From the IMG/VR virus record IMGVR_UViG_3300035698_020835, positions 1 through 37,658 of that record: 37,658 bases of DNA; one strand, 5' to 3'. How positions within the stretch are numbered: position 1 is the stretch's first letter; every line of letters starts with the position of its first letter. Made by a program: the position numbers and the translations under genes. The notes below the pieces were generated by a model. The model did no database searches, had not been told where the DNA came from, and worked only from the letters and a program-made list of their open reading frames with translations. Of this stretch, positions 1 to 15,987 are shown piece after piece. The DNA comes from a virus.

Positions 1-127
1 GCAACAAAACATCACAAATACCAACTCCCCGGCGGCCAGAATTACCGAGAGATCTTGCTCACCATGCCCCCTAAGAATGCGGATGAGCTTAGAAATACCT
101 TTCAATCAAGTCACTTCGATGAAGCAA
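1..127. repeat. Terminal direct repeat (assembly overlap), copy 1
   Basis: Bases 1-127 are identical to 37532-37658. A length of exactly 127 matches a common maximum assembler k-mer, so this is probably the overlap of a circular contig and not a biological terminal repeat. Joining the two copies keeps the long reading frame open: 34349-37531 is exactly 1,061 codons and continues in frame at base 1. The repeat lies inside that gene, which also argues against a true phage terminal repeat. Confidence 0.93.
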
Positions 128-3100: not shown

Positions 3101-3642
3101 TTACTCAATTTCAAATCAGGGAGCCCGACGCGGGTAGAAGTAAATTCACGCAGTATCCACTTACAAGAATCTTTCACCGGTCACGATATACTGAGAACAA
3201 AGACCTTGATAAATCTCTTGATGATGCAACCCGCAAGCAAGCAGATGAGCGCTTCCTTTTGCAAGAGATGGCAGAAAAAGAGGTCGAGGGTATGGAGACC
3301 ATGACGCGCGAAGAGAAGGGTCAGAGACTTGCCGCTATTGCGCGAAACAAGCCACTCTTTGAGCGCTTCAAGAAAACTGCTAAAGACAAAATGCTCAACC
3401 TTTCCTATGCAGAGCGTCGCATTAAATCTCTTGGAGTGAACAATGGTGAGAGAGCTGCATTCATCTATGATCTTCTTAGAAAAGAAGGCGAGAATCGCTA
3501 TGGATACCTGAAGGAATTGGTTCATAAAAAAGTGGTGAGTGAGACGGTCTTGAAGCAGATTCTTGCACGAGTGATGAATGACAATACGCTGGCCACTAAA
3601 GAAGAAAAGATCTCCAAGCTAAGGGAGGCGTTAGCTAAATAA
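1..3642 (+). CDS. Giant phage polyvalent protein, C-terminal part (continues from 34349)
   Basis: This is residues 1062-2274 of a 2,274-residue protein whose start is at 34349. The frame is open from base 1, so no start should be placed here. Residues of about 1075-1195 form a block I recognise from many phage and plasmid polyvalent proteins: NYREILL, then FIEEIQSDWHQKGRKEGY near residue 1124, then VPDAPFKKTWHELALKR and WTTGEQQSDRY. Its biochemical activity is not known to me. The remainder is mostly helical and charged, with hydrophobic stretches near 1861-1960 and 2400-2570 of the window, resembling the late LPD-type domains of polyvalent proteins (exact Pfam number not determinable by eye). 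Such proteins are thought to be packaged and injected with the DNA. The position directly after internal virion genes fits that. The end is TAA at 3640-3642, overlapping the next ATG by one base. Confidence 0.85.
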   Translation, partial: ATKHHKYQLPGGQNYREILLTMPPKNADELRNTFQSSHFDEANILAHTRVNDRKDSEGNKVLFIEEIQSDWHQKGRKEGYRTKGAAGIVPDAPFKKTWHELALKRLIRMAAENGYDKLAWTTGEQQSDRYELSQEVDMIQVRPAKSGAGFDVMAFKGTDQKINETATSEDALARMIGKDPARIAMEKGAAKGPIQLYDLDLKVGGQGMQAFYDQMIPQYLKKYLKKWGGSVGMTQIEDKGQGTLVHSIDITAKMRVSVLDEGQSLFRETPEEYGNQGDKDRIKKLEDLIRNTKETLEATEMIALNEARAVIKSGPVKEKIPFKDRINTLTSKLRVDFISEFFPVKQLEKDVFKVYGKEVPRFDLSKKFELVAGARGRAEADIRAFEADIIKPIRKNYDDFNVFLFLNRTISRLKTDPDLKRVGSWTVEKAEAALDGLEKSLGALEFRKFLHVGQEFQQHMDNALQLQVDSGRMSEKLYETIKESNDYYAPFKVLKYFEEMEAAKGSGGRNIATTQQLTKKITGIHSEDFNIVDILMTSESQIYKSRILAEKNLKMQEIANLSELDTENKFIRPLRSHEEAGKGMDEVKLFQDGKIVRLEVAQDVAEAVKGLNHTQVGTFMKILSLVAAPLRAGVTVNNLDFQARNLFFADLPRAGLISKYGFKKVGDILRFPLDWIYSVGSSLHGNFGGDNELYTQFLKSGAANSTIARMMRPEAFRREHRLEKSVAKQVLGVPADILDNIAKFSNAIEETSKLLGVKRGLRMEGFDKLSPAEQTKKMEEIAHEVRNYSGSPDFARKGRIAGVMNLVVMFFNARLQGVAADMKRLGGLSGGKEATMAWTRMSVVVGLPALVLSLVNHSDENEEDYYKIPEVERESYFMIPRDKYFTNKEGEQIREYWRIPKREVVKLFSNMIEKGVEFAKDKNPDALAEYAAYFLQDIFPINIQGNNPEEITESLIASLNPLFKAPYEYTTGRNAYFHNNIIPFRMRNISPELQYRSNTPEVYKAAARSRIGQFFNLSPLKAEGLVRSLTGGLLTQFQIREPDAGRSKFTQYPLTRIFHRSRYTENKDLDKSLDDATRKQADERFLLQEMAEKEVEGMETMTREEKGQRLAAIARNKPLFERFKKTAKDKMLNLSYAERRIKSLGVNNGERAAFIYDLLRKEGENRYGYLKELVHKKVVSETVLKQILARVMNDNTLATKEEKISKLREALAK

Positions 3643-3743
3643 TGGAGATCCTTCTTTGGCGTTTAATCTTTATGGCCGGTTGCTTCATTGGGATGCTGCA
3701 CCTCTCAGCGGTGCTTGATGTTGTTCGCTACCGCAGACGCTAG
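3642..3743 (+). CDS. 33-residue single-pass membrane microprotein
   Basis: The ATG overlaps the polyvalent gene stop (TAATG), and a Shine-Dalgarno-like AGGGAGG lies at about 3621-3627. The product is 33 residues: a short start, a hydrophobic helix of about 20 residues (LLWRLIFMAGCFIGMLHLSA) and a basic tail ending RYRRR, as in a small inner-membrane protein oriented by positive charges. Its TAG stop shares the bases CTAG (3740-3743) with the stop of the convergent minus-strand gene, so the gap is filled exactly. The function is unknown. A lysis or superinfection role is possible but unsupported. Confidence 0.5.
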   Translation: MEILLWRLIFMAGCFIGMLHLSAVLDVVRYRRR

Positions 3744-4126
3744 AACCCCTCCTTAATGAGATCATCGAGTGATCGAATAATAAGATACCGACCGCCGTGG
3801 TCAACCAAATCCTTTTCGAAAAGTTTCTGCTCGTCTGACTGCCGCCCGGTTGGCGTCTTTACCTCAAACGCGTAAAACTGAGTGTGACGTATCAGGTGAG
3901 TGTGCTCCGTGTAGATTTCTGTTTTCAAGAGCATGATGTCGGGAACACCTTTGCGGGAATGTTGAGCGCTTGCCCAAAACTCACGGCCTGTCTTTTTGTC
4001 CAGCCGCTTAACGCCCGTGTTGTTTTGCCTCCAAAAGAAATATTTTTTAAGAGCTAGATACTCGCAGCACGCCGTAACGATTGGCGATTCCGTTCTGCGC
4101 GTAATCCTCGTGTTTCTGCTTTTCAT
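3740..4126 (-). CDS. VRR-NUC domain endonuclease
   Basis: A 128-residue protein with the VRR-NUC form of the PD-(D/E)XK fold: an N-terminal Glu (E13 in TESPI), then GVPDIML with D63, FEVKTPTGRQ with E88 and K90, and SDEQKLF with Q100. Phage proteins of this family are small stand-alone nucleases of the replication/recombination module. In-frame sequence extends upstream to 4192, but the start is placed at ATG 4126 because AAGGAG sits 5-6 bases before it, and the family usually begins close to this residue. It is the last gene of the leftward cluster and is convergent with the 33-residue gene. Confidence 0.85.
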   Translation of the reverse strand: MKSRNTRITRRTESPIVTACCEYLALKKYFFWRQNNTGVKRLDKKTGREFWASAQHSRKGVPDIMLLKTEIYTEHTHLIRHTQFYAFEVKTPTGRQSDEQKLFEKDLVDHGGRYLIIRSLDDLIKEGF

Positions 4127-4203
4127 AAATCTCCTTACCTTTCTTGAGATGTTTCTATAAAAGCCGTAGAGAGGATCCCGGTAGGGCCTCATTAAAGATC
4201 GAA

Positions 4204-4413
4204 CTATTTTTGTTCCGGTTTTGGGTAATAGGTATAGATGTACTTTTTCTTTTCAGACGTACAGAACGATCCTCTTATGTCATAACCTTTTGCTTTAAGC
4301 TCTTTGATCCGTACCGGATACTGAAAAATTGCAGGCTGAAGAGCTCTGAGTTCTTGGTTTGAAATGGATCGTTTTGCTTCGAAGAGTGCTAAAAGGGTTT
4401 CTTGCTGTGACAT
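4204..4413 (-). CDS. Small helix-turn-helix protein
   Basis: A 69-residue protein beginning MSQQETLLALF, preceded by GAGGTG at a good distance from the ATG. The order is helix (ETLLALFEA), SISNQELRAL as a probable helix-turn-helix entry, RIKELKAKGYDI as the probable recognition helix and wing, and a basic C-terminus. This pattern occurs in short phage winged-helix proteins near replication genes. It could be a DNA-binding accessory or a small regulator; no partner is visible. Not assigned to a named family. Confidence 0.6.
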   Translation of the reverse strand: MSQQETLLALFEAKRSISNQELRALQPAIFQYPVRIKELKAKGYDIRGSFCTSEKKKYIYTYYPKPEQK

Positions 4414-4460
4414 TGTTCACCTCATCTCGGGGGAGGGGGAAGGGTGCCGCCCACTAACGG

Positions 4461-4492
4461 TACGCGCTAGGAACCCCCGGACCTTACGCGTA
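4461..4492 (-). other. Intergenic stem-loop
   Basis: TACGCG (4461-4466) and CGCGTA (4487-4492) form a perfect 6-bp inverted repeat, with a partly paired inner stem (AGG/CCT). It lies in the 108-base gap between two minus-strand genes, the longest gap inside this cluster. There is no T-run, so it is not an intrinsic terminator. It could be an mRNA processing or stability element. Strand is assumed from the surrounding transcription. Confidence 0.35.
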
Positions 4493-4521
4493 GCTCCCTG
4501 GAACAAGCCACCCTTATTTTG

Positions 4522-4866
4522 TTATTCCTCGTCGTTCTCGATTTCCTTTGACGCTTTCTTCCGGTAAACGCGAAGCTCATCAATGGCCGACTTGTGAATG
4601 TGACTAAATGTTGCGCCATCCACAATGACAGACTCATGCCCGCCATCAATCAACATGCCAATTACTTTCTTCCGGGCTTGTTGCTTTTTTTCGTCAAGTT
4701 CCTCTTTGACCGTTGCAATTTCGTCACAAATATCCAGGTACTTTTTTGCTGCTTTATAGATGGGATCCGACTTCTTTAGATTTGCGGTCTTGGGCATGTT
4801 GTCCGCAGCCATTTCCATCTGGTCTTCATGTTCATCATCAATTTTTGATACTTTCTTCCTTGCCAT
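4522..4866 (-). CDS. Conserved-type phage protein with coiled coil, function unknown
   Basis: A 114-residue, highly charged protein. The first 40 residues are Lys/Asp/Glu/Met-rich and probably disordered. Residues of about 40-70 (YLDICDEIATVKEELDEKK) predict a coiled coil, followed by a short mixed domain ending in an acidic tail. GGAGAAA precedes the ATG at 4866. I do not recognise the family. The layout (coiled coil plus compact C-terminal domain) is common in phage early accessory proteins, so the role is left open. Confidence 0.6.
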   Translation of the reverse strand: MARKKVSKIDDEHEDQMEMAADNMPKTANLKKSDPIYKAAKKYLDICDEIATVKEELDEKKQQARKKVIGMLIDGGHESVIVDGATFSHIHKSAIDELRVYRKKASKEIENDEE

Positions 4867-4923
4867 GATGCTTTCTCCTTTGGTTGCGTTGATATTATCA
4901 TTTAATGCTTTATTGCGAGAGCC

Positions 4924-5166
4924 TTATCTAGCTCTGTTGGAGTTTTGAAGTAGCTGCGTCCCGGCTTCTTTCTTAGAGATTCCTTTCAGCGTTATGGTGT
5001 TTGCTTGAGAGTCCACGCCGACAAGCTTGAAATAATTACCAAACATTTGAACTACGGTGCCCCAGGGCGGGAGGCGTTGATAATCTTTCTGGGACGTGAA
5101 AGCCTCTTTGATATTTTCGTTTGCTAGACCGGCCATTTCTTTAATATCCCCGGTGTTTGAGTTCAT
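4924..5166 (-). CDS. Hypothetical early protein, 80 residues
   Basis: In-frame sequence reaches 5235, which would overlap the upstream gene by 59 bases. The ATG at 5166 is preferred because AAGGAGAAAAT precedes it directly. The product begins MNSNTGDIKEMAG. It contains a PWGTVVQMFGNYFKLVGVD segment and ends in basic residues. The central part looks like a small beta-rich fold. No known family is recognised. It is the downstream neighbour of the 142-residue protein in the same co-directional run. Confidence 0.55.
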   Translation of the reverse strand: MNSNTGDIKEMAGLANENIKEAFTSQKDYQRLPPWGTVVQMFGNYFKLVGVDSQANTITLKGISKKEAGTQLLQNSNRAR

Positions 5167-5176
5167 ATTTTCTCCT

Positions 5177-5605
5177 TTATGTTTTGTGAGTTGATATTGA
5201 AGCCATGATTCGAGCTGCATAAACGGGGTTGTCAACTTGCCGCTTAAGCATATCCTCGAGCCAAGACAGGTTTGATCGGTTGATCATCTTTTGGTGTTCA
5301 AGATCGTAGTAATACTTCGTGTACTTGGCCCGAGCCTTTTCTCTGAACTCATGGCGCATACGGTCTTGTTTGAGAGGCTCTTTGTCCTCAATCCTTTTCT
5401 CAAAATCCGCCTTTGATTGACGTAACTTAATGGGAGTGGTGGGGTCCGCCTTCCATTCATAGTCGTGCATAAGGCGTGTGTCTTGGCATATCTCCGCATC
5501 AATTGCCATGTTCATCTCATCTGCGGAGATGATCCCCTTCTGGAAGTCTTGATACAAAGCCTTGAAGGGATTGTTCTTGTGGGCTACTACGTCGTTTGTG
5601 GTCAT
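5177..5605 (-). CDS. Hypothetical early protein, 142 residues
   Basis: A charged, mostly helical protein starting MTTNDVVAHKNNPF. Its ATG overlaps the TGA of the upstream replication-type gene (ATGA at 5602-5605), and GAGGAGGT is placed just before it. The middle is rich in Lys/Arg/Glu and aromatic residues (AKYTKYYYDLEHQKM). The overlap suggests coupled translation and a shared role with the DnaT-like gene, for instance as a helicase loader or replication accessory, but that is context only. No motif identifies it. Confidence 0.65.
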   Translation of the reverse strand: MTTNDVVAHKNNPFKALYQDFQKGIISADEMNMAIDAEICQDTRLMHDYEWKADPTTPIKLRQSKADFEKRIEDKEPLKQDRMRHEFREKARAKYTKYYYDLEHQKMINRSNLSWLEDMLKRQVDNPVYAARIMASISTHKT

Positions 5606-6063
5606 TTGAGTACCTCCTCGATGATGTCCTTATCAGGCCGATCATCTTTGTTGACCCATTCAGGCCAGTAATCAGGTTTAAGAAAACGAACCATGTCTCG
5701 GACCATATTCTCTTTGGCCGCGTCGCTGCGCCCATAGTTCATGATTGCTAACCTAAGCTTATGATGTTGAGTTACGTCAATTTTCTTGAACCGATTGAAC
5801 GCGCCAATCTTCTCAACTTTGAGTCCATTGCGGGATGGGTAGATCTTCCAAAGCTTTTCAAACTCAGATGTGTAAGCGCTTTTCTTCTTGATCACATCAT
5901 TTGAAATGCTTGGGAAGTCAAGCTGCTTGTTCTCTGCCTGGAAGTTGGAAAGCCAATCATGCAGCCGCTTTCTTCTTGTGAAAAGCGTCTTGATAGTTAA
6001 GTCAAGTTCTTCAATACGCGCTTTTGCACAAATCGCGGTTGTTATCTTTTCATGGTCTTTCAA
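5602..6063 (-). CDS. DnaT/replication-initiator-like protein
   Basis: A 153-residue protein with an N-terminal coiled-coil segment (about residues 10-45), then EFEKLWKIYPSRNGLKVEK and a following helical stretch ending near YWPEW. The F-x-x-x-W-x-x-YP-x-x-x-G pattern is typical of the C-terminal region of phage replication proteins and primosomal DnaT-like proteins. The start is TTG at 6063, overlapping the TGA of the upstream gene by four bases (TTGA), with AAGGA about 6 bases upstream. A replication role is inferred from the motif and the coupling. Confidence 0.6.
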   Translation of the reverse strand: MKDHEKITTAICAKARIEELDLTIKTLFTRRKRLHDWLSNFQAENKQLDFPSISNDVIKKKSAYTSEFEKLWKIYPSRNGLKVEKIGAFNRFKKIDVTQHHKLRLAIMNYGRSDAAKENMVRDMVRFLKPDYWPEWVNKDDRPDKDIIEEVLK

Positions 6064-6914
6064 ATTAGATCCTTGAGGTCAACCACATCCGGCGACTCTT
6101 CTTTCCTTGTCTCAAAATTCTCGAAGATGCTTTTTTTAGTAACGTGGCCGTCTTCAAGCGCATTGAGAAGACCAAGGAGTCGGTCGCAATCCTCACCGCC
6201 TAGCTTGTCTTTCTCAACAAGCACCTTCACCTCTTCAGGCATGATGTCGAAGCGCTCAAGCCCTTGCAGTATTTCGCTTATTCTTTCGACTAGAGGTTGT
6301 TTCTTCACGCTCAAACCTTGAGCCGCTTTCTTCGTGCAGGAAATCCGCTTTGCTTCATCGAAGTAGGCCATCTTGAGGCCCTCTGGCATCGCGTTGTTGA
6401 CAGCATTCCTCACTGCCTTTGACATTCCTGAAGCAATAGCAACTTCAAGCTTGTCACCGCTCAGGGGAACCATAGCGCTCTGGCCGCGTGGCTTAAAGAA
6501 GCGCGAAACTTTAACCTGACGCATGACCCGAGTGTTTGTCTCATAGTCCATAAAAACACCCTCACAGATGAACCCGTCATCACGTTCTTCAACCACCCTG
6601 CACGCGCTGGAAGAGCTTCCCCAGCATCGCTGAATGGCCATTGCTGCTTTGATGGTGAGACCTTCTACCCAATCCGTGGTCCCTTTAGCGCGATTCTTAA
6701 AAGGGATCGAGTAGTAAATTGTCTTCGCCATGTTGGGATAAAGTTCTAATTCGTTGGTGAGTTTTTCAAGGACTTTTTGCTCATCTCGCGGACGCAAGAC
6801 TGCAATTTGTTGCTGGACTTCGTTTTCAATCCTGACTATCTGATGGCCGTCAAGCACCATCTTTTGCATACTGCTAGAGATTTGGGGTTCGGGTTTGCTC
6901 TTTGGTTTTACCAT
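6060..6914 (-). CDS. Conserved phage protein of the recombination/replication module
   Basis: A 284-residue protein whose core has a pattern I associate with widespread phage proteins of unknown structure: YYSIPFKNRAKGTTDWVEGL, IKAAMAIQRCWG, DYETNTRVMRQ, then an Ala/Gly helix (IASGMSKAVRNAVNNAMPEG). The C-terminal 90 residues are helical and charged. It sits where lambda-like phages encode single-strand annealing proteins, so a role in recombination is plausible but unproven. ATG 6914 is chosen over in-frame starts at 6926 and 6923 because GGAGG (6919-6923) lies 4 bases before it. A promoter is predicted just upstream. Confidence 0.7.
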   Translation of the reverse strand: MVKPKSKPEPQISSSMQKMVLDGHQIVRIENEVQQQIAVLRPRDEQKVLEKLTNELELYPNMAKTIYYSIPFKNRAKGTTDWVEGLTIKAAMAIQRCWGSSSSACRVVEERDDGFICEGVFMDYETNTRVMRQVKVSRFFKPRGQSAMVPLSGDKLEVAIASGMSKAVRNAVNNAMPEGLKMAYFDEAKRISCTKKAAQGLSVKKQPLVERISEILQGLERFDIMPEEVKVLVEKDKLGGEDCDRLLGLLNALEDGHVTKKSIFENFETRKEESPDVVDLKDLI

Positions 6915-6938
6915 GTGTGCCTCCAAGTTGTTTTGAAC

Positions 6939-6967
6939 ATTATCGTCTTAAATGAAATAGAAGTAAA
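6939..6967 (-). promoter_or_regulatory. Predicted sigma70-like promoter, leftward
   Basis: On the minus strand, TTTACT (6967-6962), a 17-base spacer and GATAAT (6944-6939). It lies just upstream of the 284-residue recombination-type gene, in the widest gap of this part of the cluster. It may separate the upstream accessory genes from the replication genes. Confidence 0.45.
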
Positions 6968-6976
6968 GTAGGAATG

Positions 6977-7141
6977 TTACTTATGTTTCTTGTATTTCTC
7001 TATTTGAAGCATCTCAAGTTGGTTTGCTAACTCCCCGGACTCTTGATAAACGAACACAGTGTCAAAAGACGCCATAGAATCGCTGTTGTCTTGCGTATAC
7101 AGAATAAAACCGTTTGCTACAATTTCGACTCGAAGCTTCAT
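6977..7141 (-). CDS. 54-residue hypothetical protein
   Basis: A short gene starting MKLRVEIVANGFILYTQDN and ending in a basic tail. The ATG overlaps the TGA of the upstream gene (ATGA at 7138-7141), and AAGGGGT lies 5-6 bases before it. The first half looks like a pair of beta strands and the second half like a charged helix (NQLEMLQIEKY). The function is unknown. The tight coupling on its upstream side and the good ribosome site are the main evidence that it is translated. Confidence 0.6.
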   Translation of the reverse strand: MKLRVEIVANGFILYTQDNSDSMASFDTVFVYQESGELANQLEMLQIEKYKKHK

Positions 7142-7365
7142 TTTTTACCCCTTATTGGTTGTTGTTCAAAGTGAAATACTACGATTTGATCATACCCGCC
7201 GTTGTTGACGTGCATGAGGTCCCTAGCGAGGGTGTATTCCCCGAAACCACGCCGAGTCTTCTTACCTGTGTATAAACGGCTGTAGTGACTCCAAGCCCGC
7301 AATTCAAGCGCATGTTTCATGCCCTTGCGAAACGCTTCAATTTCTCTCTTTGTTGTTTTCTTCAT
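7138..7365 (-). CDS. 75-residue basic hypothetical protein
   Basis: The start is placed at ATG 7365 because it overlaps the TGA of the upstream 57-residue gene (ATGA). An in-frame GTG at 7377 is the alternative. The product is Lys/Arg-rich (MKKTTKREIEAFRKG, GKKTRRGFGEY) with a C-terminal beta segment (YDQIVVFHFEQQ). It is probably a nucleic-acid-associated accessory protein. No family recognised. Confidence 0.55.
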   Translation of the reverse strand: MKKTTKREIEAFRKGMKHALELRAWSHYSRLYTGKKTRRGFGEYTLARDLMHVNNGGYDQIVVFHFEQQPIRGKK

Positions 7366-7535
7366 AGCTTCGCGCACCTGTAGACTTGCTTATCGCAATG
7401 CTTGCAAACATCGAGTTTGAGGCGGCCTTCACCGTAGACAGCCGCAAATTTGGTATACCGATCCATTTCAACGACGTTTGAGGGTTCGTGAACGCAGAAC
7501 AAAAAACCGAGCAGCTTGGCCGCGTATCTAATCAT
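7362..7535 (-). CDS. 57-residue zinc-finger-like protein
   Basis: A small protein, MIRYAAKLLG..., with C14-x-H16 near the start and C44-x-x-C47 near the end (VCKHCDKQ). This spacing resembles short phage zinc-binding proteins of the 'CxHxW ... CxxCG' type. AAAGGAG lies about 12 bases upstream of ATG 7535, slightly far. The stop overlaps the next gene's start (ATGA). A structural zinc site is likely. The function is unknown. Confidence 0.55.
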   Translation of the reverse strand: MIRYAAKLLGFLFCVHEPSNVVEMDRYTKFAAVYGEGRLKLDVCKHCDKQVYRCAKL

Positions 7536-7583
7536 GATGGTTTAATCTCCTTTGAGTTCGCTTCCCAATCCCCGCAAAAATTA

Positions 7584-7772
7584 TCACCATTTTTTCCTAT
7601 GTTGATTCGCGCTAGGACAAGTTGCGAAGTGAGAGGTCATTGTCTTAGGATCAAAGACAGTAGCCCCTATCGTCATCGTTTTCACATCGACCGGGTTCCA
7701 ATTACCTTTTTCAGTATTGAGCCAGTAGATTTCAGCACCGCATGATTTACATTTCGAAGTTCCTCTTGGCAT
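7584..7772 (-). CDS. 62-residue zinc-ribbon protein
   Basis: The start is ATG 7772, preceded by AAAGGA at 8 bases. The longer in-frame extension to 7961 lies inside the upstream gene and is rejected. Motifs: KCKSCGAEIYW (C8, C11), a WNPVD segment, then SHFATCP (H48, C52), giving a C-x2-C ... H-x3-C site. Compact proteins of this type, with 'CGAxIxW' and 'PVD' signatures, are frequent in phage early regions, with no assigned role. Confidence 0.65.
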   Translation of the reverse strand: MPRGTSKCKSCGAEIYWLNTEKGNWNPVDVKTMTIGATVFDPKTMTSHFATCPSANQHRKKW

Positions 7773-7785
7773 TATTTTGTTCCTT

Positions 7786-8370
7786 TCATAGTTGTACTGA
7801 ACTGAAGGTGTAAACCCACACCCGCTCGTTTCTTTCCCAGGAGCCGGGGTAGATTTTATCAATAGATTCTCTGAATAGCTCACAAGATGACCTGAACTTT
7901 GTGCTGGGCGCGTAACCCTCTTTAGCGCAATCTTTCTCAGAAATTTCACTAAGACGCTCAACCCACACGCCGGTTATTTGAAGCGTGATCCTGGAAGCCC
8001 ACCGGGGCATACTCTTCGCGGATTTCCACACAATCTCTGATCTTGTGCCCTTGTTCATTTTTTGAGTTAAGGCATGGCTCGCTTCGTAAGCAATGCAACC
8101 CGTATTCCCGGACCACTTTTCTTTGACCCAGATTTTGTCGCCGACTTGGTGAGGGGCTTTAATTTCAGGCAACCAAGACCCAGCTTTTCTCATTGCTACG
8201 GGCGTCCCGGCGTCTACGCCAAAAAAACGACAGAAACCATCTTTCTCAACTTCGATTCTATCCACCCACTCACAAGGCTGTGGCTTTACAATCCGCCGCA
8301 CCTGAGTCTTACTCCTATCAAGCAGCTTCAAGATAGAATCTTCTGGGAATACCATTGAGCGCTCTTTCAT
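7786..8370 (-). CDS. ASCH-domain phage protein
   Basis: A 194-residue protein beginning MKERSMVFPEDSILKLLDR. Characteristic stretches: KTQVRRIVKPQP near the start, QVGDKIWVKEKW in the middle, PRWASRITLQITGVWVERL and the ending ERVWVYTF. This is a common phage family with an ASCH-like (PUA-related) fold, expected to bind RNA or modified nucleosides. The true start is ATG 8370: GGAGG precedes it and it overlaps the upstream TGA (ATGA). Some databases label relatives 'morphogenetic protein' without evidence. Its direct neighbour is a second ASCH-fold protein. Confidence 0.8.
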   Translation of the reverse strand: MKERSMVFPEDSILKLLDRSKTQVRRIVKPQPCEWVDRIEVEKDGFCRFFGVDAGTPVAMRKAGSWLPEIKAPHQVGDKIWVKEKWSGNTGCIAYEASHALTQKMNKGTRSEIVWKSAKSMPRWASRITLQITGVWVERLSEISEKDCAKEGYAPSTKFRSSCELFRESIDKIYPGSWERNERVWVYTFSSVQL

Positions 8371-8618
8371 CCTTCCCTCCGCGCAGTTTCTTGATAGCTG
8401 AAAACACAAAAATCAGGTCTTTGATTAAAGCTACTCATGTAAGTGATGTAGCCTTCAATTTCCCAGCCTGTATATTCATTCTTGGAAAGATTGTGCTCTT
8501 GCAAAACAAATTTTTCGTTGATTTGAAACTTATCATTGAACCGAATCTCGAATGATTTAGCGCCGCTCCAAGAGGCCGCAAATCCTTCGCGTGTGGCTTT
8601 TAGATAGTGAGTCTTCAC
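8367..8618 (-). CDS. DUF3850 / ASCH-like RNA-binding protein
   Basis: An 83-residue protein. The start (THYLKATREGF), SGAKSFEIRFNDKF and LQEHNLSKNEYTGWEIEG match the DUF3850 family (ASCH-like fold), small phage proteins with a conserved FE-x-R-x-ND core and an 'eYTG' motif. The start is GTG 8618, overlapping the TGA of the nuclease gene (GTGA). It is followed by another ASCH-fold gene overlapping by four bases, so the pair is probably co-translated. Substrate unknown. Confidence 0.78.
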   Translation of the reverse strand: MKTHYLKATREGFAASWSGAKSFEIRFNDKFQINEKFVLQEHNLSKNEYTGWEIEGYITYMSSFNQRPDFCVFSYQETARREG

Positions 8619-9487
8619 TTTTTCACCGCTTTCTTTTTAGCTCGCTTCATCCAGAATGGAACCGTCTCTTTTCCGCCGCCGCGTTTGTAGAATTGATAGA
8701 ATTTGCAGGTTTGCGCGAACCCGCAATGATCCTCGTTACAGTACCAGGATCCCTTCTTTGCTGGCATAAACACACCCGCCTTGACCCCGTAGAGAAAGAG
8801 ATTGATTTTGTCAACAACGGTCTTGTAATCGCGCTTGTCGCGTGTGGTGCTTAAAAGAACGCGCTTCTGAGTCTTTCCTGTGTCCACAAGGTTCTCGATA
8901 TGGATCGCCCTCGGGTCTTTCTTGTAGATCGCGCGAAAGGCAAGGCCATAGATCCCGAATTGGAGATCCCGGTCTACCTCACCCTGGCTCTTTGAGCGTT
9001 TACCTGTCTTAAGATCCACAATCTCGTCTTTATCTGAAATGAGATCAAGTTTCACAAGAAGATCATATTCCTCGTTAAGCTTGACTCGCTGGAACTCTTC
9101 AACAAGTTTTGGTTGATAGTGAGGCGCTACCTGATCGGTGTAAATTTGCGCTAGACCGACCGCCTGGTCCTTTTGTTTGCCAAGGACTATCTTGTACCCT
9201 ACCGACGCCTGTTCCTTCGTTAGAGTGACTCCCTCGTCCTTTACGCGCACATCAAAGGCATCAGCGGTTGCTTCTAGAATCTTCTTCGCGCTCAGGTCTA
9301 CATAGGTCTTGATCTTCTGCTTGAAATTTACCTCGGATCCCGCGTGGACGGCGGTGCCTTTGAGAAGGTAGGCTGTGGGTGGGACTCGCTCTTTTTCAAT
9401 CTTGTTGCGACGGTAGAACTCCCCACATTTCTCTAGATAGGCGTTGATGGCGGAATGGGATATATGCTTACGTTTTGACGTCTCCAT
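8615..9487 (-). CDS. PD-(D/E)XK nuclease, RecB/Cas4-like
   Basis: A 290-residue nuclease. The active-site series is readable: H48 in GTAVHAG, D148 in VKLDLI, D158 and K160 in IVDLKTGKR, Q176 and Y180 in LQFGIY. Four cysteines are placed as in Fe-S RecB/Cas4/AddB nucleases: C21 near the start and C250, C255 and C261 near the end, so a 4Fe-4S cluster is likely. The family cuts or resects DNA ends in recombination. AAGGAG lies about 10 bases before ATG 9487. The Lys-rich tail overlaps the next gene (GTGA). No CRISPR array is present, so a Cas role is not implied. Confidence 0.87.
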   Translation of the reverse strand: METSKRKHISHSAINAYLEKCGEFYRRNKIEKERVPPTAYLLKGTAVHAGSEVNFKQKIKTYVDLSAKKILEATADAFDVRVKDEGVTLTKEQASVGYKIVLGKQKDQAVGLAQIYTDQVAPHYQPKLVEEFQRVKLNEEYDLLVKLDLISDKDEIVDLKTGKRSKSQGEVDRDLQFGIYGLAFRAIYKKDPRAIHIENLVDTGKTQKRVLLSTTRDKRDYKTVVDKINLFLYGVKAGVFMPAKKGSWYCNEDHCGFAQTCKFYQFYKRGGGKETVPFWMKRAKKKAVKK

Positions 9488-9562
9488 TGCTCATGTCTCC
9501 TTAGCTCTCGGTTCATTTGGCGCCTGATAAGCCTGAATCTCACAATGAGCTTATCTTGGCGT

Positions 9563-9817
9563 TTAAGTAGATTTTTGAGTCGTTTTGAATTTTCCACGTT
9601 TTCGGGCCTCGCTTCTATAGAATTTCTCAAGGGCATCAAATTGAGCGTCTTGAGGGGCGGTTCCTTTTTCGAACCATCGCCAGATGGTGGGCCACTTGAC
9701 GCCGATGGTCTTGGCGATGCGGTACTTCGTTATTTTAAAGTCCTCAGTGAGAATAGTGATCATTTCCAGACCCTTCTCTCTTCGGAACTTCCTATACTCT
9801 TGAGCCATTGTATCCAT
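9563..9817 (-). CDS. Small HTH transcriptional regulator
   Basis: An 84-residue protein with a clear helix-turn-helix at residues of about 28-52: KITKYRIAKTIGVKWPTIWR followed by WFEKGTAP. This is the Cro/XRE-like arrangement found in small phage repressors. AAGGAG stands directly before ATG 9817. A strong promoter and a 14-bp perfect palindrome lie within 75 bases upstream, so autoregulation is likely. With no integrase in the genome, it is more likely an early-gene regulator than a lysogeny repressor. Confidence 0.75.
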   Translation of the reverse strand: MDTMAQEYRKFRREKGLEMITILTEDFKITKYRIAKTIGVKWPTIWRWFEKGTAPQDAQFDALEKFYRSEARKRGKFKTTQKST

Positions 9818-9841
9818 AGAACTCCTTGTCTTGATGATGAG

Positions 9842-9870
9842 AATATAGCTGAGAGTAGAAAAGTAGTCAA
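9842..9870 (-). promoter_or_regulatory. Strong sigma70-like promoter for the HTH gene
   Basis: Minus strand TTGACT (9870-9865), spacer of exactly 17 bases, TATATT (9847-9842). It is the best promoter match found in the window. It lies 25 bases before the start codon of the HTH regulator and drives the leftward cluster. A TAGCT...AGCTA inverted pair spans the promoter. Confidence 0.65.
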
Positions 9871-9877
9871 GCTATTT

Positions 9878-9891
9878 TGAAATATATTTCA
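9878..9891. promoter_or_regulatory. 14-bp perfect palindrome, candidate operator
   Basis: TGAAATATATTTCA is a perfect palindrome ending 8 bases upstream of the -35 box of the HTH-gene promoter. The size and position suit a dimeric small HTH protein, most simply the product of the adjacent gene. It is AT-rich, so it could also act as an UP element. Confidence 0.4.
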
Positions 9892-9929
9892 TACTTCGGC
9901 GGATTTTGAGGAAACTTGAGGGGAAGGGC

Positions 9930-10265
9930 CTAGTGTTTAAACGTATATTTTTTATGATACCGGCATTCGCAGCAAAATTTAGCATTTCTGCCATGCTCAC
10001 AATATTGGAGGTTTTTAAGTGGGCTGTGCCGTATTAGCGCCTCATTTTTCTTGAGAGCCTTTATCTTCCAACGATTAAGGCCACACCCTCTTTCAAACTC
10101 ATGCTTTTTGCGTAAGGTAATTACACGGCCAATGAGAGCCCGCTTCCAACCTTTCCTTGGTGGCCAAGCAACACTAAGGCAATTTGCCTGAGCTCTTTTA
10201 AGACCAACCCCTTTTGACATATTTGCTTCTAACCAAGACTTTGTTACCAAAAACATACCTTCCAT
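9930..10265 (-). CDS. Hypothetical protein with C-terminal Cys/His cluster
   Basis: A 111-residue basic protein. The N-terminal half (TKSWLEANMSKGVGLKRAQ, then AWPPRKGWKRALIGR) looks like a DNA-binding module. The C-terminus has CEHGRNAKFCCEC with a further His (YCEH ... CCECRYH), a probable zinc site. GAGGAG lies 2 bases from ATG 10265 and 11 bases from an in-frame ATG at 10256, so the start is uncertain by three codons. It is the first gene of the leftward cluster after the structured leader region. Confidence 0.55.
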   Translation of the reverse strand: MEGMFLVTKSWLEANMSKGVGLKRAQANCLSVAWPPRKGWKRALIGRVITLRKKHEFERGCGLNRWKIKALKKNEALIRHSPLKNLQYCEHGRNAKFCCECRYHKKYTFKH

Positions 10266-10322
10266 AGCTCCTCTTCCTATAGAAATTTATTAAACGACAT
10301 ACCCATCTGATTCCCTCCCCGC

Positions 10323-10530
10323 ATCAGTAGCAAGGACTCCCTCAGTGGTTCTCTAGCTTGCGAGGATCTACCGAGATGCGTGTTGAGTAGCCCTTGACTT
10401 ACTAGCCTATATTTTAGAGTCTGACCAAATTCAGCCCCGCTATTGCCAACGTATTGGGTGTACCGTTGCCTCCCCGCAACCGAGGGATTGGACCTCGGGT
10501 CAGGCGCATGCTTGACGGGCCTACTGATAA
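10323..10530. ncRNA. Candidate structured RNA in the leftward leader
   Basis: ATCAGTAG near one end and CTACTGAT near the other (minus-strand reading, within 10323-10530) form a perfect 8-bp closing stem across about 190 bases. Inside are several perfect hairpins: CCGAGG/CCTCGG with a 7-base loop (TCCAATC), GTTGC/GCAAC with a 6-base loop, and CCAA-TACG-TTGG with a UNCG-type tetraloop. The segment is GC-richer than the AT-rich DNA on both sides. The open frame across it has no ribosome site and a non-protein-like composition. It is downstream of the leftward promoters, so minus-strand transcription is likely, but strand is not proven. It is not a tRNA: no acceptor stem could be built. Confidence 0.4.
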
Positions 10531-10600
10531 GACATTCGGTTAATTTCTTAAAATAACCTGAAAAGAAAGCAATGGAAAAAATAGGAGAATCACTGAAGGC

Positions 10601-10640
10601 AAAAAAAAGACGGCCAGAGTTTTGAGGCTCTAGCCGTCTT
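10601..10640 (-). terminator. Strong intrinsic terminator, leftward
   Basis: On the minus strand, AAGACGGC-T-AGAG (10640-10628) pairs with CTCT-G-GCCGTCTT (10619-10607) around an 8-base loop, and the run of T continues to 10601 (8 T in total). The central pair is G-U only in the minus-strand RNA; on the plus strand it would be a C-A mismatch. The stem has therefore been kept for leftward transcripts. It stops transcription coming from the promoters at 10718-10792 unless antiterminated. Confidence 0.85.
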
Positions 10641-10686
10641 AGAAATGCGTGAGTGTCCCCATACGCGCCAACGTAAAGAGAACCAT
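10639..10686 (-). CDS. 15-codon leader peptide before the attenuator-like terminator
   Basis: Minus strand ATG at 10686, preceded by AGGAA at a normal distance, encodes MVLFTLARMGTLTHF and stops with TAA at 10641-10639. The stop codon lies exactly at the foot of the terminator hairpin (stem begins at 10640). A ribosome held at the stop would cover the 5' arm and block hairpin formation. GTGGGTGT and ACACTCAC in the same leader can pair (8 bp, one G-U), which gives an alternative structure. An in-frame upstream ATG (10755) lacks a ribosome site. Translation is predicted, not shown. Confidence 0.45.
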   Translation of the reverse strand: MVLFTLARMGTLTHF

Positions 10687-10717
10687 GGAAAGTTCCTGGA
10701 AGAACACCCACGTTTGA

Positions 10718-10726
10718 ATTATAACA
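10718..10726 (-). promoter_or_regulatory. Extended -10 promoter, leftward
   Basis: Minus strand TGTTATAAT (10726-10718) is a consensus -10 with the extended TGn motif; the -35 region is poor. Transcription would begin about 10711 and read through the leader peptide into the terminator at 10640, giving a 100-110 nt RNA if terminated. Confidence 0.5.
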
Positions 10727-10763
10727 GATTTGGGTTGACGCGCTATTTTTTCCATAGTTTTGA

Positions 10764-10792
10764 ATTATGCGCCTAAAAAAGTAAGATCGCAA
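10764..10792 (-). promoter_or_regulatory. Second leftward sigma70-like promoter
   Basis: Minus strand TTGCGA (10792-10787), 17-base spacer, CATAAT (10769-10764). It is upstream of and in tandem with the extended -10 promoter, aimed at the same leader and early cluster. Confidence 0.45.
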
Positions 10793-10895
10793 CATTTATT
10801 TTAAGCTTCCCTGCTAAAGTTCTGTTTGAACTATCCGTATATTTAATATATCCTTCTTTTATTACTAAAAAAGGGGGTATAGGGAAGTGGCGTGA

Positions 10896-10988: not shown

Positions 10989-12275
10989 ATGAACCTGAGA
11001 ATTTCCGGGATTAAAATTGACCTCGTTCTCGTCCTACTTGGACTCTCCCCGCTTTTCTACTACATGGATCAATTAAACCCAAACATTCGATTGCAACAAA
11101 TTAGTTTCTTTTTGTACATGACCGTGTTGTTTGTTGCGGTAATGCACAACAATAAACTTATTGGCGCGTTCCTCCTTCTCTCCGCTGCCCATCTTTTCAT
11201 GTTTGGACCATCAGAATTTTATGTAGACAAGATGATCTTCCTTACGTGCGGGGCATTGATCTTTCACGCTGTAGCTTCTGGTTATGATGGGAAATATTGG
11301 CGGCATATTCTCCTTGCTGTGCTTGTGGTGAACCTCGTGCTCTCTTTGCTTCAGATGCAAGGAAAAGACATTTTTTTCTTCCAAAACCAAGAGGCGTCAG
11401 GTTTCTTCACATTGCCTAGTTATATGGGCATTTATGCCGCTGTGACCGCGCCGGTGCTTTTCACGCTCACGCCTTGGGCTCTTGTGCTCTCCGTAGGGGC
11501 GGTGCTACTTTCAAAGTCAATCTTTTCCTGTGTTGCGCTTGCGCTTGGGATGGGCTACTTTTTCACGCAGAGATACAAATTTCGCCCAACCCTTTATTTA
11601 TGCCTATTTATCGGGGCAATTGCTGGACTAATATTTTTGGTTGCGGTGAAGGACTCGTCCACTGGCCAATGGAGTCGGCGGGGCATGGTTTGGAAGATGG
11701 TTGCATCAAAGGCATTCAGGAGCCCATTTATTGGACACGGTGTAGGGAGCTATCAAAAAACAATGTTCATCGAGTTCCGAGGCCACGAGAACACTTATTT
11801 CCAAGTGAATGTCAAACCTGAGAATGAGGAACCTCTCAAAGCAAAGATCCTTGAAATTGCTCATGCCAACGGCACCGACACATCAAGGATTGAATCAATT
11901 CACTTTAAGCAACCCGGCGGTGTGTTCCATAATTTAAAGTTCATCATGGATGACTTGCGCGGAAAAAAAGAGAATGGTTTGCATGGATACATCTGGGATC
12001 ATCCGCATAATGAATACTTGAAAGTGTTTTACGAACATGGACTTTTGGGGTTACTGCTTGTTTTATTATTGGTGCGCCGGTGGGTTTTTAAGAATACAAG
12101 CGGCACAAGAATACTTGTTTTCTCATACAAACAACTTACCGAGCTAAGTGCGCTTAGAGCGAGTGCGCTTGCCATTGCTATCGTGAGCGTTGCTCATTTC
12201 CCTTTTCACATCCCGCGATTAGCTGCTATCATTATTTTTTTACTTGCAAAACTTGACTCTAAATTTAAACCATGA
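10989..12275 (+). CDS. O-antigen ligase/polymerase-like membrane protein
   Basis: A 428-residue polytopic membrane protein with about 10 hydrophobic segments. A large soluble loop at about residues 225-350 begins with the family landmark RGMVWKMVASKAF...GHGVGSYQ and ends with WDHPHNEYLKVFYEHGLLGL. This is the conserved Arg and the H-N-x-Y-L ... E-x-G pattern of Wzy/WaaL-type proteins. Cellular members polymerise or ligate O-antigen at the periplasmic face. In a phage it could alter the host surface and exclude other phages. AAGGA precedes the ATG at a good distance. It opens the rightward cluster and its stop overlaps an ATG (ATGA). Which of the two reactions it performs is not decidable. Confidence 0.78.
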   Translation: MNLRISGIKIDLVLVLLGLSPLFYYMDQLNPNIRLQQISFFLYMTVLFVAVMHNNKLIGAFLLLSAAHLFMFGPSEFYVDKMIFLTCGALIFHAVASGYDGKYWRHILLAVLVVNLVLSLLQMQGKDIFFFQNQEASGFFTLPSYMGIYAAVTAPVLFTLTPWALVLSVGAVLLSKSIFSCVALALGMGYFFTQRYKFRPTLYLCLFIGAIAGLIFLVAVKDSSTGQWSRRGMVWKMVASKAFRSPFIGHGVGSYQKTMFIEFRGHENTYFQVNVKPENEEPLKAKILEIAHANGTDTSRIESIHFKQPGGVFHNLKFIMDDLRGKKENGLHGYIWDHPHNEYLKVFYEHGLLGLLLVLLLVRRWVFKNTSGTRILVFSYKQLTELSALRASALAIAIVSVAHFPFHIPRLAAIIIFLLAKLDSKFKP

Positions 12276-13164: not shown

Positions 13165-13727
13165 GCGATCTACAAAAAGACCTAGAGCAAGTATTTCTTG
13201 AAGAACTCAACAACAACTCAAGCCTTGAATATTCAGGGCATGCAGAACGGCTCGCGCAAAAAGCAATTGCATTCTTTCAACCCAGCGTGGACGCGTTTAT
13301 TGAACAAGCAGAACAAAACAAGTTCCTAACCTCCGCGACAGTGATCGCGCAGTGGCACCGGGCAATCACGCTGATTCGAGATATGGAAGAGGCGCTCTAC
13401 TTGCTTCCCATTTACACCGTTCCAAATGGTGAGCTCGCGGTAAGGTGCAAGGAGAACATAGGGAAGTTCTTTGATTACGGCCCGAACAAAAGCCTTCATG
13501 CAGTTATCTTGAAGGTCATCACTTCCAAAGCACTCCTGAGGGATGTTTATTATTTCCTTGAGTCGTTGATCAAACAATCCCAGAAAGCGGTAAAGCACGC
13601 AGAAGAACCCACCAAATCATATATCGAGAATCGCATTGAGATTATGGGAGACCTGAAGCAAGGAGTCTCAGAGATTATGGCGGCGGCGGGGGTTCTTGGT
13701 GACAATCTCGAAGAGCCTGAGAGTTAA
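13161..13727 (+). CDS. Hypothetical helical protein between the terminase genes
   Basis: A 188-residue, mainly helical acidic protein starting MSDLQKDLEQVFLEEL. It overlaps the small-terminase gene by four bases and the large-terminase frame by about 30 bases, so all three are probably translated as a unit. No motif identifies it. A packaging or DNA-processing accessory role is suggested by position only. Confidence 0.65.
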   Translation: MSDLQKDLEQVFLEELNNNSSLEYSGHAERLAQKAIAFFQPSVDAFIEQAEQNKFLTSATVIAQWHRAITLIRDMEEALYLLPIYTVPNGELAVRCKENIGKFFDYGPNKSLHAVILKVITSKALLRDVYYFLESLIKQSQKAVKHAEEPTKSYIENRIEIMGDLKQGVSEIMAAAGVLGDNLEEPES

Positions 13728-15987
13728 TGCCAATGACACAGTATGGGAAGGCCAGCCCCGCCAGTTAAAGTTTCTTTATTCGCAGTGCGATGAAGCGTTT
13801 TATGGGGGAGCCGCGGGCGGTGGTAAGTCTGACGCGATCCTCGCATTTAATATCTGCAGAAGAAAAAAATACCCAGGATCCAAAGGTCTCATCCTTAGAC
13901 GCACCATCACAGAACTTCAAAAAGAAGGTTCACTCATCCCAAGGAGTCATGAACTTCTTGGGCTCCCTGAATGGAAGTGGAACGAGCAAAAGAAGAAGTG
14001 GACCGACAGAAACAATGGCGTCATTGAGTTTGGCTACTGCAAGAATGAGAAAGATGTTTACAAGTATCAATCCTCCGCCTTTGATGACATCTCATTTGAT
14101 GAGCTTACCCATTTCACAGAGTTTCAATACACCTACCTAAAGACAAGAGCTCGCTCTATTCGTGGTGTGCCAGTGGCAATCCGCTCTGCCTCAAACCCTG
14201 GCAATGTAGGGCACCTCTGGGTTAAGGATAGATTCATTGATCCATTTCCACTCGGCGAACAAATCATCTCTGAGCCCATCATAAATCCACTTACCAAAGA
14301 AACAGAATATCGTACACGAACCTATATTCCCGCGAAGGTATGGGATAACAGCAAGCTTCTTGAAAAAGATCCAAATTACCTTCTTGCGCTTCAATCCATG
14401 CCGGAAGCCATAAGAACCGCTTTGCTTGATGGTGATTGGAACACGTTTGCAGGGCAATATTTTGGAGAGTTCAAGACAAAGACTCATGTCATAAGACCCT
14501 TCAAGATTCCTGTTGAATGGCCAAGATACATCACGATGGATTGGGGCATGGCGAAACCTGCTTGTTTATTATGGATTGCTGTGGCCCCCACGGGTAGAGC
14601 CTATGTTTACCGGGAAATCTATTGCACCAACAAAATCTCATCTGTTGTGGCAAAAGAAATGAAACGCTTCGTGGATGCAGATGAAAACATGGGCGCTAAA
14701 TATTATGGGTGGCTTGCAGACCCATCAATATTTTCAAAGAAAGGTGAGGCGTCTGGATCAATTGCAAGCACGTTTAAGAAAGTTCTTGGCCGTCAGTTTA
14801 GACCTGCAAAGAATCAACGCGTGCAAGGCTGGAATCGTTTACGGGAGTGGTTCGCGCTTGCGCCTGACGGTCTTCCGTGGATACAATTCTTTTCAACCTG
14901 TGCGAACTCAATCAGAACCATCCCTGGGTTAATTCATGATGATCTTCATCCAGAGGATGTTGACACGGATGGAGAGGATCATTGCTTTACAGGAGAGACA
15001 AGGATTGGCTGTCTGTTTCGGAAAATAAAGATCAAGGATATGGTGGGAAGAAAATATTATGTTGCGACAACAAAAGGTTATAGAAAATGCCGGAGTGTTC
15101 GCCGTACTCGCGTGAGCAAGGTATGGGAGGTTACATTTGAGGATGGATCAAGCCTTAAAGCAACACCTGATCATAGGTTTCTAACACAGCGCGGTTGGAA
15201 GCATTTAAAAGAAATTAAGATAGAATCCGACGTTCTGATACAATCAGATACTTCATGTATAAAGTTATCTCTAAAACTATCCAAGAATTTAATGGAATCC
15301 GTTATTACTTGTGCGGACAATATTTTCAAAAAAAAGGTAGTCGGCTTCATCTTCAAGTTTGGAAAGACGCCCACGGAAAAATCAAGAAGGGGTTTTGCGT
15401 CCATCACAAGAATGAGAACCGCTCCGACAACAGGATTGAAAATCTACAGCTCATGTCAAACTTTGAGCATGCATCCCACCACAGCAAAGCACCCGCTAAC
15501 ATCAAACGAATCATGGAGATATTATTTACCAAGGCTCAACCAGCAGCCGCGAAGTGGCACGGATCTGAAGCAGGAAGGAAATGGCATGCCCTCCATTCAA
15601 AAAAAGTGTGGAAGAACATGGCCTTGGTTGAAAAGGTTTGTGTGGTGTGCGGCGCGAGCTACAAAACGCCAATTTCACGCCGTTCGCTTTCAAAATACTG
15701 CCATGCGAATTGTAAAGCTACAGCCCTCAGGAGAAGAAGAGGTATACAACCTCACCGTCCCGCACGTAAAAAACTACACCGTTGAGAACGGAGTCATTGT
15801 CCATAACTGTGGGGATGCAATGAGATACTTCGCTGTGACGAAACCTAAGATCATTAAAAACAAACCAACCCCCGACATTTCAAGGCTTGCATTACGAGAT
15901 CAAGCGCGTATTGACCGTGAAGAAAAGAAGAAAGAAACCGCACAACAATCAAAAGGTGTCAAAAGCTTTCTTGATACTCTAAGCTAG
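13696..15987 (+). CDS. terL: Large terminase subunit containing an intein
   Basis: The precursor is 763 residues. Removing the 275-residue intein leaves 488, a normal terminase size. ATPase: Walker A GGAAGGGKS (37-45), RR at 68-69, and Walker B ISFDE with D135 and E136. Nuclease (RNase H-like): first Asp in YITMDWGMAKP, second in YGWLADPS, third in CGDAMRYF (D707), immediately after the intein. It drives packaging and cuts the DNA. The exteins join as GEDH | CGDAMRYF, matching the usual ED-H-x-x-D-A-x-R-Y signature. The start is TTG 13696 or GTG 13699, inside the end of the previous gene; no ATG occurs before the Walker A. A separate HNH gene lies in another frame within the intein. Confidence 0.92.
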   Translation: MVTISKSLRVNANDTVWEGQPRQLKFLYSQCDEAFYGGAAGGGKSDAILAFNICRRKKYPGSKGLILRRTITELQKEGSLIPRSHELLGLPEWKWNEQKKKWTDRNNGVIEFGYCKNEKDVYKYQSSAFDDISFDELTHFTEFQYTYLKTRARSIRGVPVAIRSASNPGNVGHLWVKDRFIDPFPLGEQIISEPIINPLTKETEYRTRTYIPAKVWDNSKLLEKDPNYLLALQSMPEAIRTALLDGDWNTFAGQYFGEFKTKTHVIRPFKIPVEWPRYITMDWGMAKPACLLWIAVAPTGRAYVYREIYCTNKISSVVAKEMKRFVDADENMGAKYYGWLADPSIFSKKGEASGSIASTFKKVLGRQFRPAKNQRVQGWNRLREWFALAPDGLPWIQFFSTCANSIRTIPGLIHDDLHPEDVDTDGEDHCFTGETRIGCLFRKIKIKDMVGRKYYVATTKGYRKCRSVRRTRVSKVWEVTFEDGSSLKATPDHRFLTQRGWKHLKEIKIESDVLIQSDTSCIKLSLKLSKNLMESVITCADNIFKKKVVGFIFKFGKTPTEKSRRGFASITRMRTAPTTGLKIYSSCQTLSMHPTTAKHPLTSNESWRYYLPRLNQQPRSGTDLKQEGNGMPSIQKKCGRTWPWLKRFVWCAARATKRQFHAVRFQNTAMRIVKLQPSGEEEVYNLTVPHVKNYTVENGVIVHNCGDAMRYFAVTKPKIIKNKPTPDISRLALRDQARIDREEKKKETAQQSKGVKSFLDTLS
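14983..15807 (+). mobile_element. Intein in terL, residues 430-704, with foreign-frame insert
   Basis: Splicing elements are all visible. Block A begins at Cys430 (CFTGETRIG). Block B contains KATPDHRFLTQRGW, with the T-x-x-H motif. Block F is VYNLTVPHVKNYTV. Block G is VIVHN, with penultimate His703 and terminal Asn704, and the +1 residue is Cys705. Residues of about 521-669 have a Ser/Lys/Arg-rich composition with no endonuclease motifs; this is the stretch where another frame encodes an HNH endonuclease. The element is therefore a mini-intein whose linker is the shadow translation of an inserted gene. It should be splicing-competent, but activity is not shown. Confidence 0.88.
15255..15785 (+). 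CDS. HNH homing endonuclease, nested out of frame in the intein
   Basis: A 176-residue protein in the -1 frame relative to terL. The N-terminal part (NGIRYYLCGQYFQKKGSRLH) and the catalytic region VHHKNENRSDNRIENLQL...EHASHH give a complete HNH motif: H50-H51, N59/N63 and H72. A helical K-WHGSEAGRKWH segment typical of phage HNH enzymes follows. A C-terminal zinc finger (C129-x2-C132 ... C149-x3-C153) and an Arg-rich tail complete it. The gene ends at TGA 15783-15785, inside intein block F, so its last 27 codons are dual coding with a conserved intein region. ATG 15255 has no obvious ribosome site; translation could be independent or arise by -1 frameshifting. It would cut intein-less terL alleles to spread the element. 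Confidence 0.85.
   Translation: MYKVISKTIQEFNGIRYYLCGQYFQKKGSRLHLQVWKDAHGKIKKGFCVHHKNENRSDNRIENLQLMSNFEHASHHSKAPANIKRIMEILFTKAQPAAAKWHGSEAGRKWHALHSKKVWKNMALVEKVCVVCGASYKTPISRRSLSKYCHANCKATALRRRRGIQPHRPARKKLHR

Follow-up and report, generated by a model that had tools for sequence, protein, structure and literature searches.

Positions 10713 to 10603, on the minus strand of a tailed, uncharacterised phage, probably constitute a stand-alone small-RNA gene with a product of about 105 nt. The RNA would most likely be a phage-encoded small RNA of a known kind, placed by Rfam outside the C4 and IsrK families. The first-pass annotation of this DNA had proposed a leader-peptide attenuator and had named a stand-alone RNA of 100–110 nt as the alternative, and it is the alternative that fits the computational results best.

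Genomic setting

The window, that is, the whole stretch of DNA analysed, is an entire virus record of 37,658 bases, possibly a fragment. It encodes a terminase, a portal, a major head protein, an adaptor and a large polyvalent protein, all recognisable yet distant. The candidate RNA gene sits at the divergence point of two gene blocks. The leftward block (approximately 3740–10265) contains a nuclease, a replication-initiation-like gene, an exonuclease and a weakly HTH-like gene, and the rightward block starts at 10989 with an O-antigen-ligase-like gene, followed by the head genes. The product of this O-antigen-ligase-like gene (10989–12275) is a membrane protein with a Wzy_C domain (PF04932), for which no match was found in the phage records searched. 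In addition, the gene of the terminase large subunit (13696–15987) contains an intein (PF14890, E 8e-14). A minus-strand ORF of 172 aa (10277–10795) that spans the RNA feature was rejected as a gene on its negative codon-usage score and the lack of any family.

Fold of the RNA and its terminator

The elements of the RNA are as follows.

10603–10713, minus strand: proposed small RNA gene, about 105–110 nt (fold z, terminator)
10702–10712, minus strand: closing stem (11 bp), 5' arm (folding)
10679–10696, minus strand: hairpin A, 6 bp, loop with UUCCAU (pair probability about 0.7)
10662–10675, minus strand: hairpin B, 5 bp (folding)
10648–10658, minus strand: closing stem (11 bp), 3' arm (folding)
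10607–10640, minus strand: intrinsic terminator hairpin, followed by U8 at 10607–10600 (folding)

From its 5' end, the RNA has a closing stem of 11 bp that encloses the two small hairpins, then a short unpaired linker, then the terminator. With a 13-bp stem (10640–10628/10619–10607), a loop of 8 nt and an energy of −21.6 kcal/mol, the terminator is the strongest intrinsic terminator in the window, and the 13-bp stem described by the first-pass annotation is borne out together with its U8 tail. The same annotation had remarked that the one imperfect stem position is a G-U pair on the minus strand only, which holds for the single non-Watson-Crick position, 10632 U / 10615 G. The second pairing that it had drawn around the peptide region is likewise present, and measures 11 bp (10712–10702/10658–10648).

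Folding of 10713–10603 gave −47.6 kcal/mol for the minus strand versus −36.2 kcal/mol for the plus strand, and comparison with shuffled sequences gave a fold z of −6.5 for 10599–10714. Windows over 10713–10603 had the lowest fold z among the 3004 evaluated, so that this stretch ranks first for folding in the 37.7 kb record; the second best region in the window, with a fold z of −5.8, is 2451–2560, within a large ORF (55–3642). The 5' domain folded without the terminator was still better than all 200 shuffles (z −3.9), remained unchanged at every transcript length folded, and was simply joined by the terminator in the longer transcripts. The pair probabilities of the closing stem and the terminator stem were mostly near 1, so that both structures coexist without competition.

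Promoter matches

Two promoter candidates precede the RNA.

10718–10726, minus strand: P2, extended −10 promoter TGTTATAAT (TATAAT at 10723–10718; predicted start at about 10713–10711)
10764–10792, minus strand: P1, upstream promoter match TTGCGA-17-CATAAT (weak, chance level)

The match TGNTATAAT at P2 is the sole exact extended −10 in the window, both strands having been scanned, and the start predicted from it coincides with the base of the RNA's first stem. The −35 element of P2 is very poor. The scan that found P1 returned 7 sites versus 5.2 ± 2.1 expected, and P1 ranks 106th in the window. Of the two promoters of the first-pass annotation, P2 is thus a candidate with a unique exact extended −10 and a poor −35 element, and P1 does not rise above chance.

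Promoter match, fold, terminator and the coexistence of the two structures are results of computation, and we infer that the small RNA is transcribed. On the proposed mechanism, the polymerase would start at P2 and stop at the intrinsic terminator at about position 10603, and the product of about 105 nt would carry the 11-bp stem with its two hairpins at the very 5' end, then the single-stranded linker, and lastly the terminator hairpin with its U-tail.

Complementarity to the ribosome-binding site of gene 1

The nearest gene downstream of the RNA, and the first of the leftward block, is hereafter named gene 1.

9930–10265, minus strand: gene 1, 111 aa, no known family
10240–10285, minus strand: proposed target, the ribosome-binding site (RBS) and start region of gene 1 (pairing at 10276–10248, start codon at 10265–10263)
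10674–10700, minus strand: RNA segment complementary to the gene 1 RBS and start (hairpin A loop, 3' arm and junction)

The C-terminus of the gene 1 product is rich in Cys and His (YCEHGRNAKFCCEC); the codon-usage score of the gene is weak and its Shine-Dalgarno (SD) sequence strong.

In the predicted duplex, 25 bases of the RNA pair with positions −11 to +18 of the target at −28.7 kcal/mol, the target side having two bulges, of 1 and 4 nt. With the RNA's own complement set aside, a single site in the window pairs better than gene 1, and it lies inside the portal gene. When the energies of 18-nt duplexes were compared among 41 gene starts, gene 1 came first with −23.0 kcal/mol (mean −14.5, sd 2.7), and with reversed and reverse-complement RNAs it was not favoured. 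Shuffled 5' domains matched the 18-nt duplex energy of gene 1 in 0.2% of cases (n = 1000; P 0.002), a value to be read for a target that was chosen after several RNA segments had been tried. After correction for the cost of opening both partners, gene 1 again led the 41 gene starts, with the exonuclease gene from its own block in second place; its score was a modest −7.3 that lies between the 1% (−8.2) and 5% (−4.4) points of random sites. Dimerisation of the whole RNA with the gene 1 target (−10.2 kcal/mol) was no better than that of shuffled RNAs (P 0.44), and by this measure gene 1 was second of 41, with the exonuclease gene ahead. Duplex energies computed for the whole domain, a separate measure, were uninformative because long bulged duplexes dominate them. 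For a transcript reading through from P2, pairing in cis between the segment and the RBS amounted to 19.2 expected pairs, versus 1.7 ± 3.8 in shuffles (P 0.007).

These calculations suggest a function in which hairpin A, through its loop and 3' arm (UUUCCAUGGUUCUCUUU), would pair with the SD sequence and start codon of gene 1 (ATG at 10265) and repress its translation, either as the small RNA acting in trans or, in P2 transcripts that continue past the terminator, in cis. That gene 1 is held down in this way is put forward tentatively, as a possibility well below even chances.

Flanking inverted repeat

An inverted repeat surrounds the RNA gene.

10743–10761, no strand assigned: inverted-repeat arm on the P1 side, 19 nt (sequence scan)
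10566–10584, no strand assigned: inverted-repeat arm beyond the terminator, 19 nt (sequence scan)

The arms match at 17 of 19 positions with the identical core ATGGAAAAAATAG, and such a repeat turned up in 1 of 3000 shuffles and a single time in the real window. Each arm can also start a short ORF beginning MEKI, of 38 codons on the minus strand, where it lacks an SD sequence and is in frame with the 15-codon peptide discussed below, and of 17 codons on the plus strand. An invertible segment between the arms was considered and dropped, no recombinase having been found among the proteins scanned.

For P1 transcripts, folding predicts that the two arms pair and that the pairing of the RNA segment with the RBS is abolished; at such distances, folds are unreliable. 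A two-promoter switch could be imagined from this prediction: read-through from P2 would mask the gene 1 RBS, transcripts from P1, which would start about 44 nt upstream, would unmask it via the repeat, the choice of start site would set gene 1 translation, and the terminated P2 RNA would repress in trans. Such a switch is highly improbable as it stands and is mentioned as a speculation.

Alternative readings of the locus

The reading put first in the first-pass annotation was an attenuator governed by ribosome position at the stop codon of a leader peptide. Spelled out, a ribosome translating the leader would reach that codon, block the terminator hairpin and let the polymerase enter the leftward genes, and termination would follow when the leader is untranslated. 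The leader in question is a 15-codon ORF.

10639–10686, minus strand: 15-codon ORF MVLFTLARMGTLTHF (ATG at 10686, TAA at 10639; translation doubtful)

Its sequence elements are all in place, with AGGA at a good spacing of 7 nt before the ATG and a TAA that overlaps the base of the terminator stem. In E. coli, termination at an intrinsic terminator is suppressed when a ribosome sits at a stop codon a few bases ahead of it (PMC4824070), so that read-through would be expected here if the peptide were translated. However, an SD sequence followed by an ORF of 8 codons or more that closes within such a stretch occurred in 1–3% of shuffles and in 4% of real 111-nt windows, which puts the leader peptide near the level of chance. 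The SD sequence moreover lies in hairpin A, and opening the start site costs 10.1 kcal/mol, versus a gene median of 7.1 and a 90th percentile of 11.9. SD-like and AUG-like sequences tend to occur in a self-folding loop that is complementary to an RBS, and the semblance of a leader peptide may have arisen in this way. No antiterminator competing with the terminator was found at any transcript length folded. The claim that the element stands at the head of the leftward operon proved loose as well: gene 1 begins 341 nt past the terminator, after a stretch without coding signal, and the second leftward gene carries its own promoter match (9870–9842), the top score in the window. The attenuator is therefore not upheld and is regarded as improbable; the coexistence of the 5' domain with the terminator, the 341-nt gap and the separate promoter match of the second gene favour a stand-alone RNA instead. 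Within the gap, 10266–10600 (about 330 nt without coding signal) holds three neighbouring small hairpins at about 10465–10516, whose fold is within the shuffle range. A tRNA, a tmRNA or another structured RNA was sought in the hairpin-rich part, 10280–10560, and none was found, the fold there being not beyond shuffles.

The locus might also be no more than a terminator that stops transcription arriving from the right, the upstream fold and the −10 match being incidental. The terminator is indeed by far the strongest single element, but the 5' domain beats every one of its shuffles when folded alone, the unique extended −10 is placed exactly at the 5' base of that domain, and little leftward traffic would arrive because transcription of the rightward block heads away from it; this explanation is accordingly judged unlikely, if slightly less so than the attenuator. 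A more serious competitor accepts the small RNA but gives it host RNAs or a protein (a chaperone, the polymerase or a defence component) as its target, with the match to gene 1 fortuitous. A pyrimidine-rich loop with CCAUGG suits many SD-AUGG starts, the 10674–10700 segment pairs moderately with many of the window's gene starts, and gene 1 is unremarkable in full dimer energy. Against this stand the prominence of gene 1 in the duplex-energy and shuffle tests and its position next downstream. A host or protein target is a possibility, at clearly lower confidence than the stand-alone gene itself.

Search for relatives

The Rfam search gave no relative of the RNA, all its matches being sub-threshold, and neither did searches of viral and genome contigs with exact pieces. 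Six protein queries retrieved protein relatives approximately 25–41% identical. A covariance-model search of 24 records of distant relatives did not find the RNA, a weak negative as the model was built on one sequence. Several of the relatives' terminators are strong, with no evident counterpart of the one described here.

Comparison with known phage RNAs

The gene for C4 lies upstream of its target and on the target's own strand, while OOP and Sar are encoded antisense to their target. The C4 RNA of phages P1 and P7 (RF01695) is a small multi-hairpin phage RNA, a loop of which occludes the ribosome-binding site of its target by pairing with it (PMC5320573). The RNA described here is likewise a multi-hairpin phage RNA and, if the pairing is real, would also place a loop on an RBS. 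In contrast, C4 is about 77 nt long, is cut by RNase P from a longer transcript and has two target loops, a' and b', whereas the present RNA comes with a promoter match and a terminator of its own and with a single target-like segment. Scored with the RF01695 model, it reaches 12.2 bits against a gathering score of 45, which excludes it from membership.

IsrK of prophage Gifsy-1 is an intrinsically terminated small RNA that heads an operon and whose read-through transcripts are the operon mRNA (PMC4825925). The likeness lies in a short, intrinsically terminated RNA that precedes an operon, and, if the pairing is real, in an organisation where one promoter serves both the short RNA and a read-through mRNA. 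IsrK activates translation of the read-through mRNA in trans, whereas the pairing proposed here covers the RBS and start codon and thus predicts repression; furthermore, read-through is known for IsrK and putative here. No match was obtained in Rfam at the gathering score, and IsrK was absent from the weak matches too.

OOP of phage lambda and Sar of P22 are short phage RNAs that lower the expression of phage genes by base pairing (PMC12197685). The present RNA resembles them as a short phage RNA with a proposed base-pairing repression of a phage gene, and differs in lying on the strand of its putative target and in its partial complementarity. Ribosome-coupled attenuators of the pyrBI type share the short ORF that ends at an intrinsic terminator; here, however, that ORF is near chance level, its translation is doubtful and a regulated gene does not adjoin it.

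To our knowledge, few phage small RNAs are known outside the model temperate phages. If the reading proposed here is true, it would extend RNA control of the C4 and IsrK kind to a new phage lineage without a close known relative, and the possible control of gene 1 through pairing with its ribosome-binding site offers a directly testable prediction.
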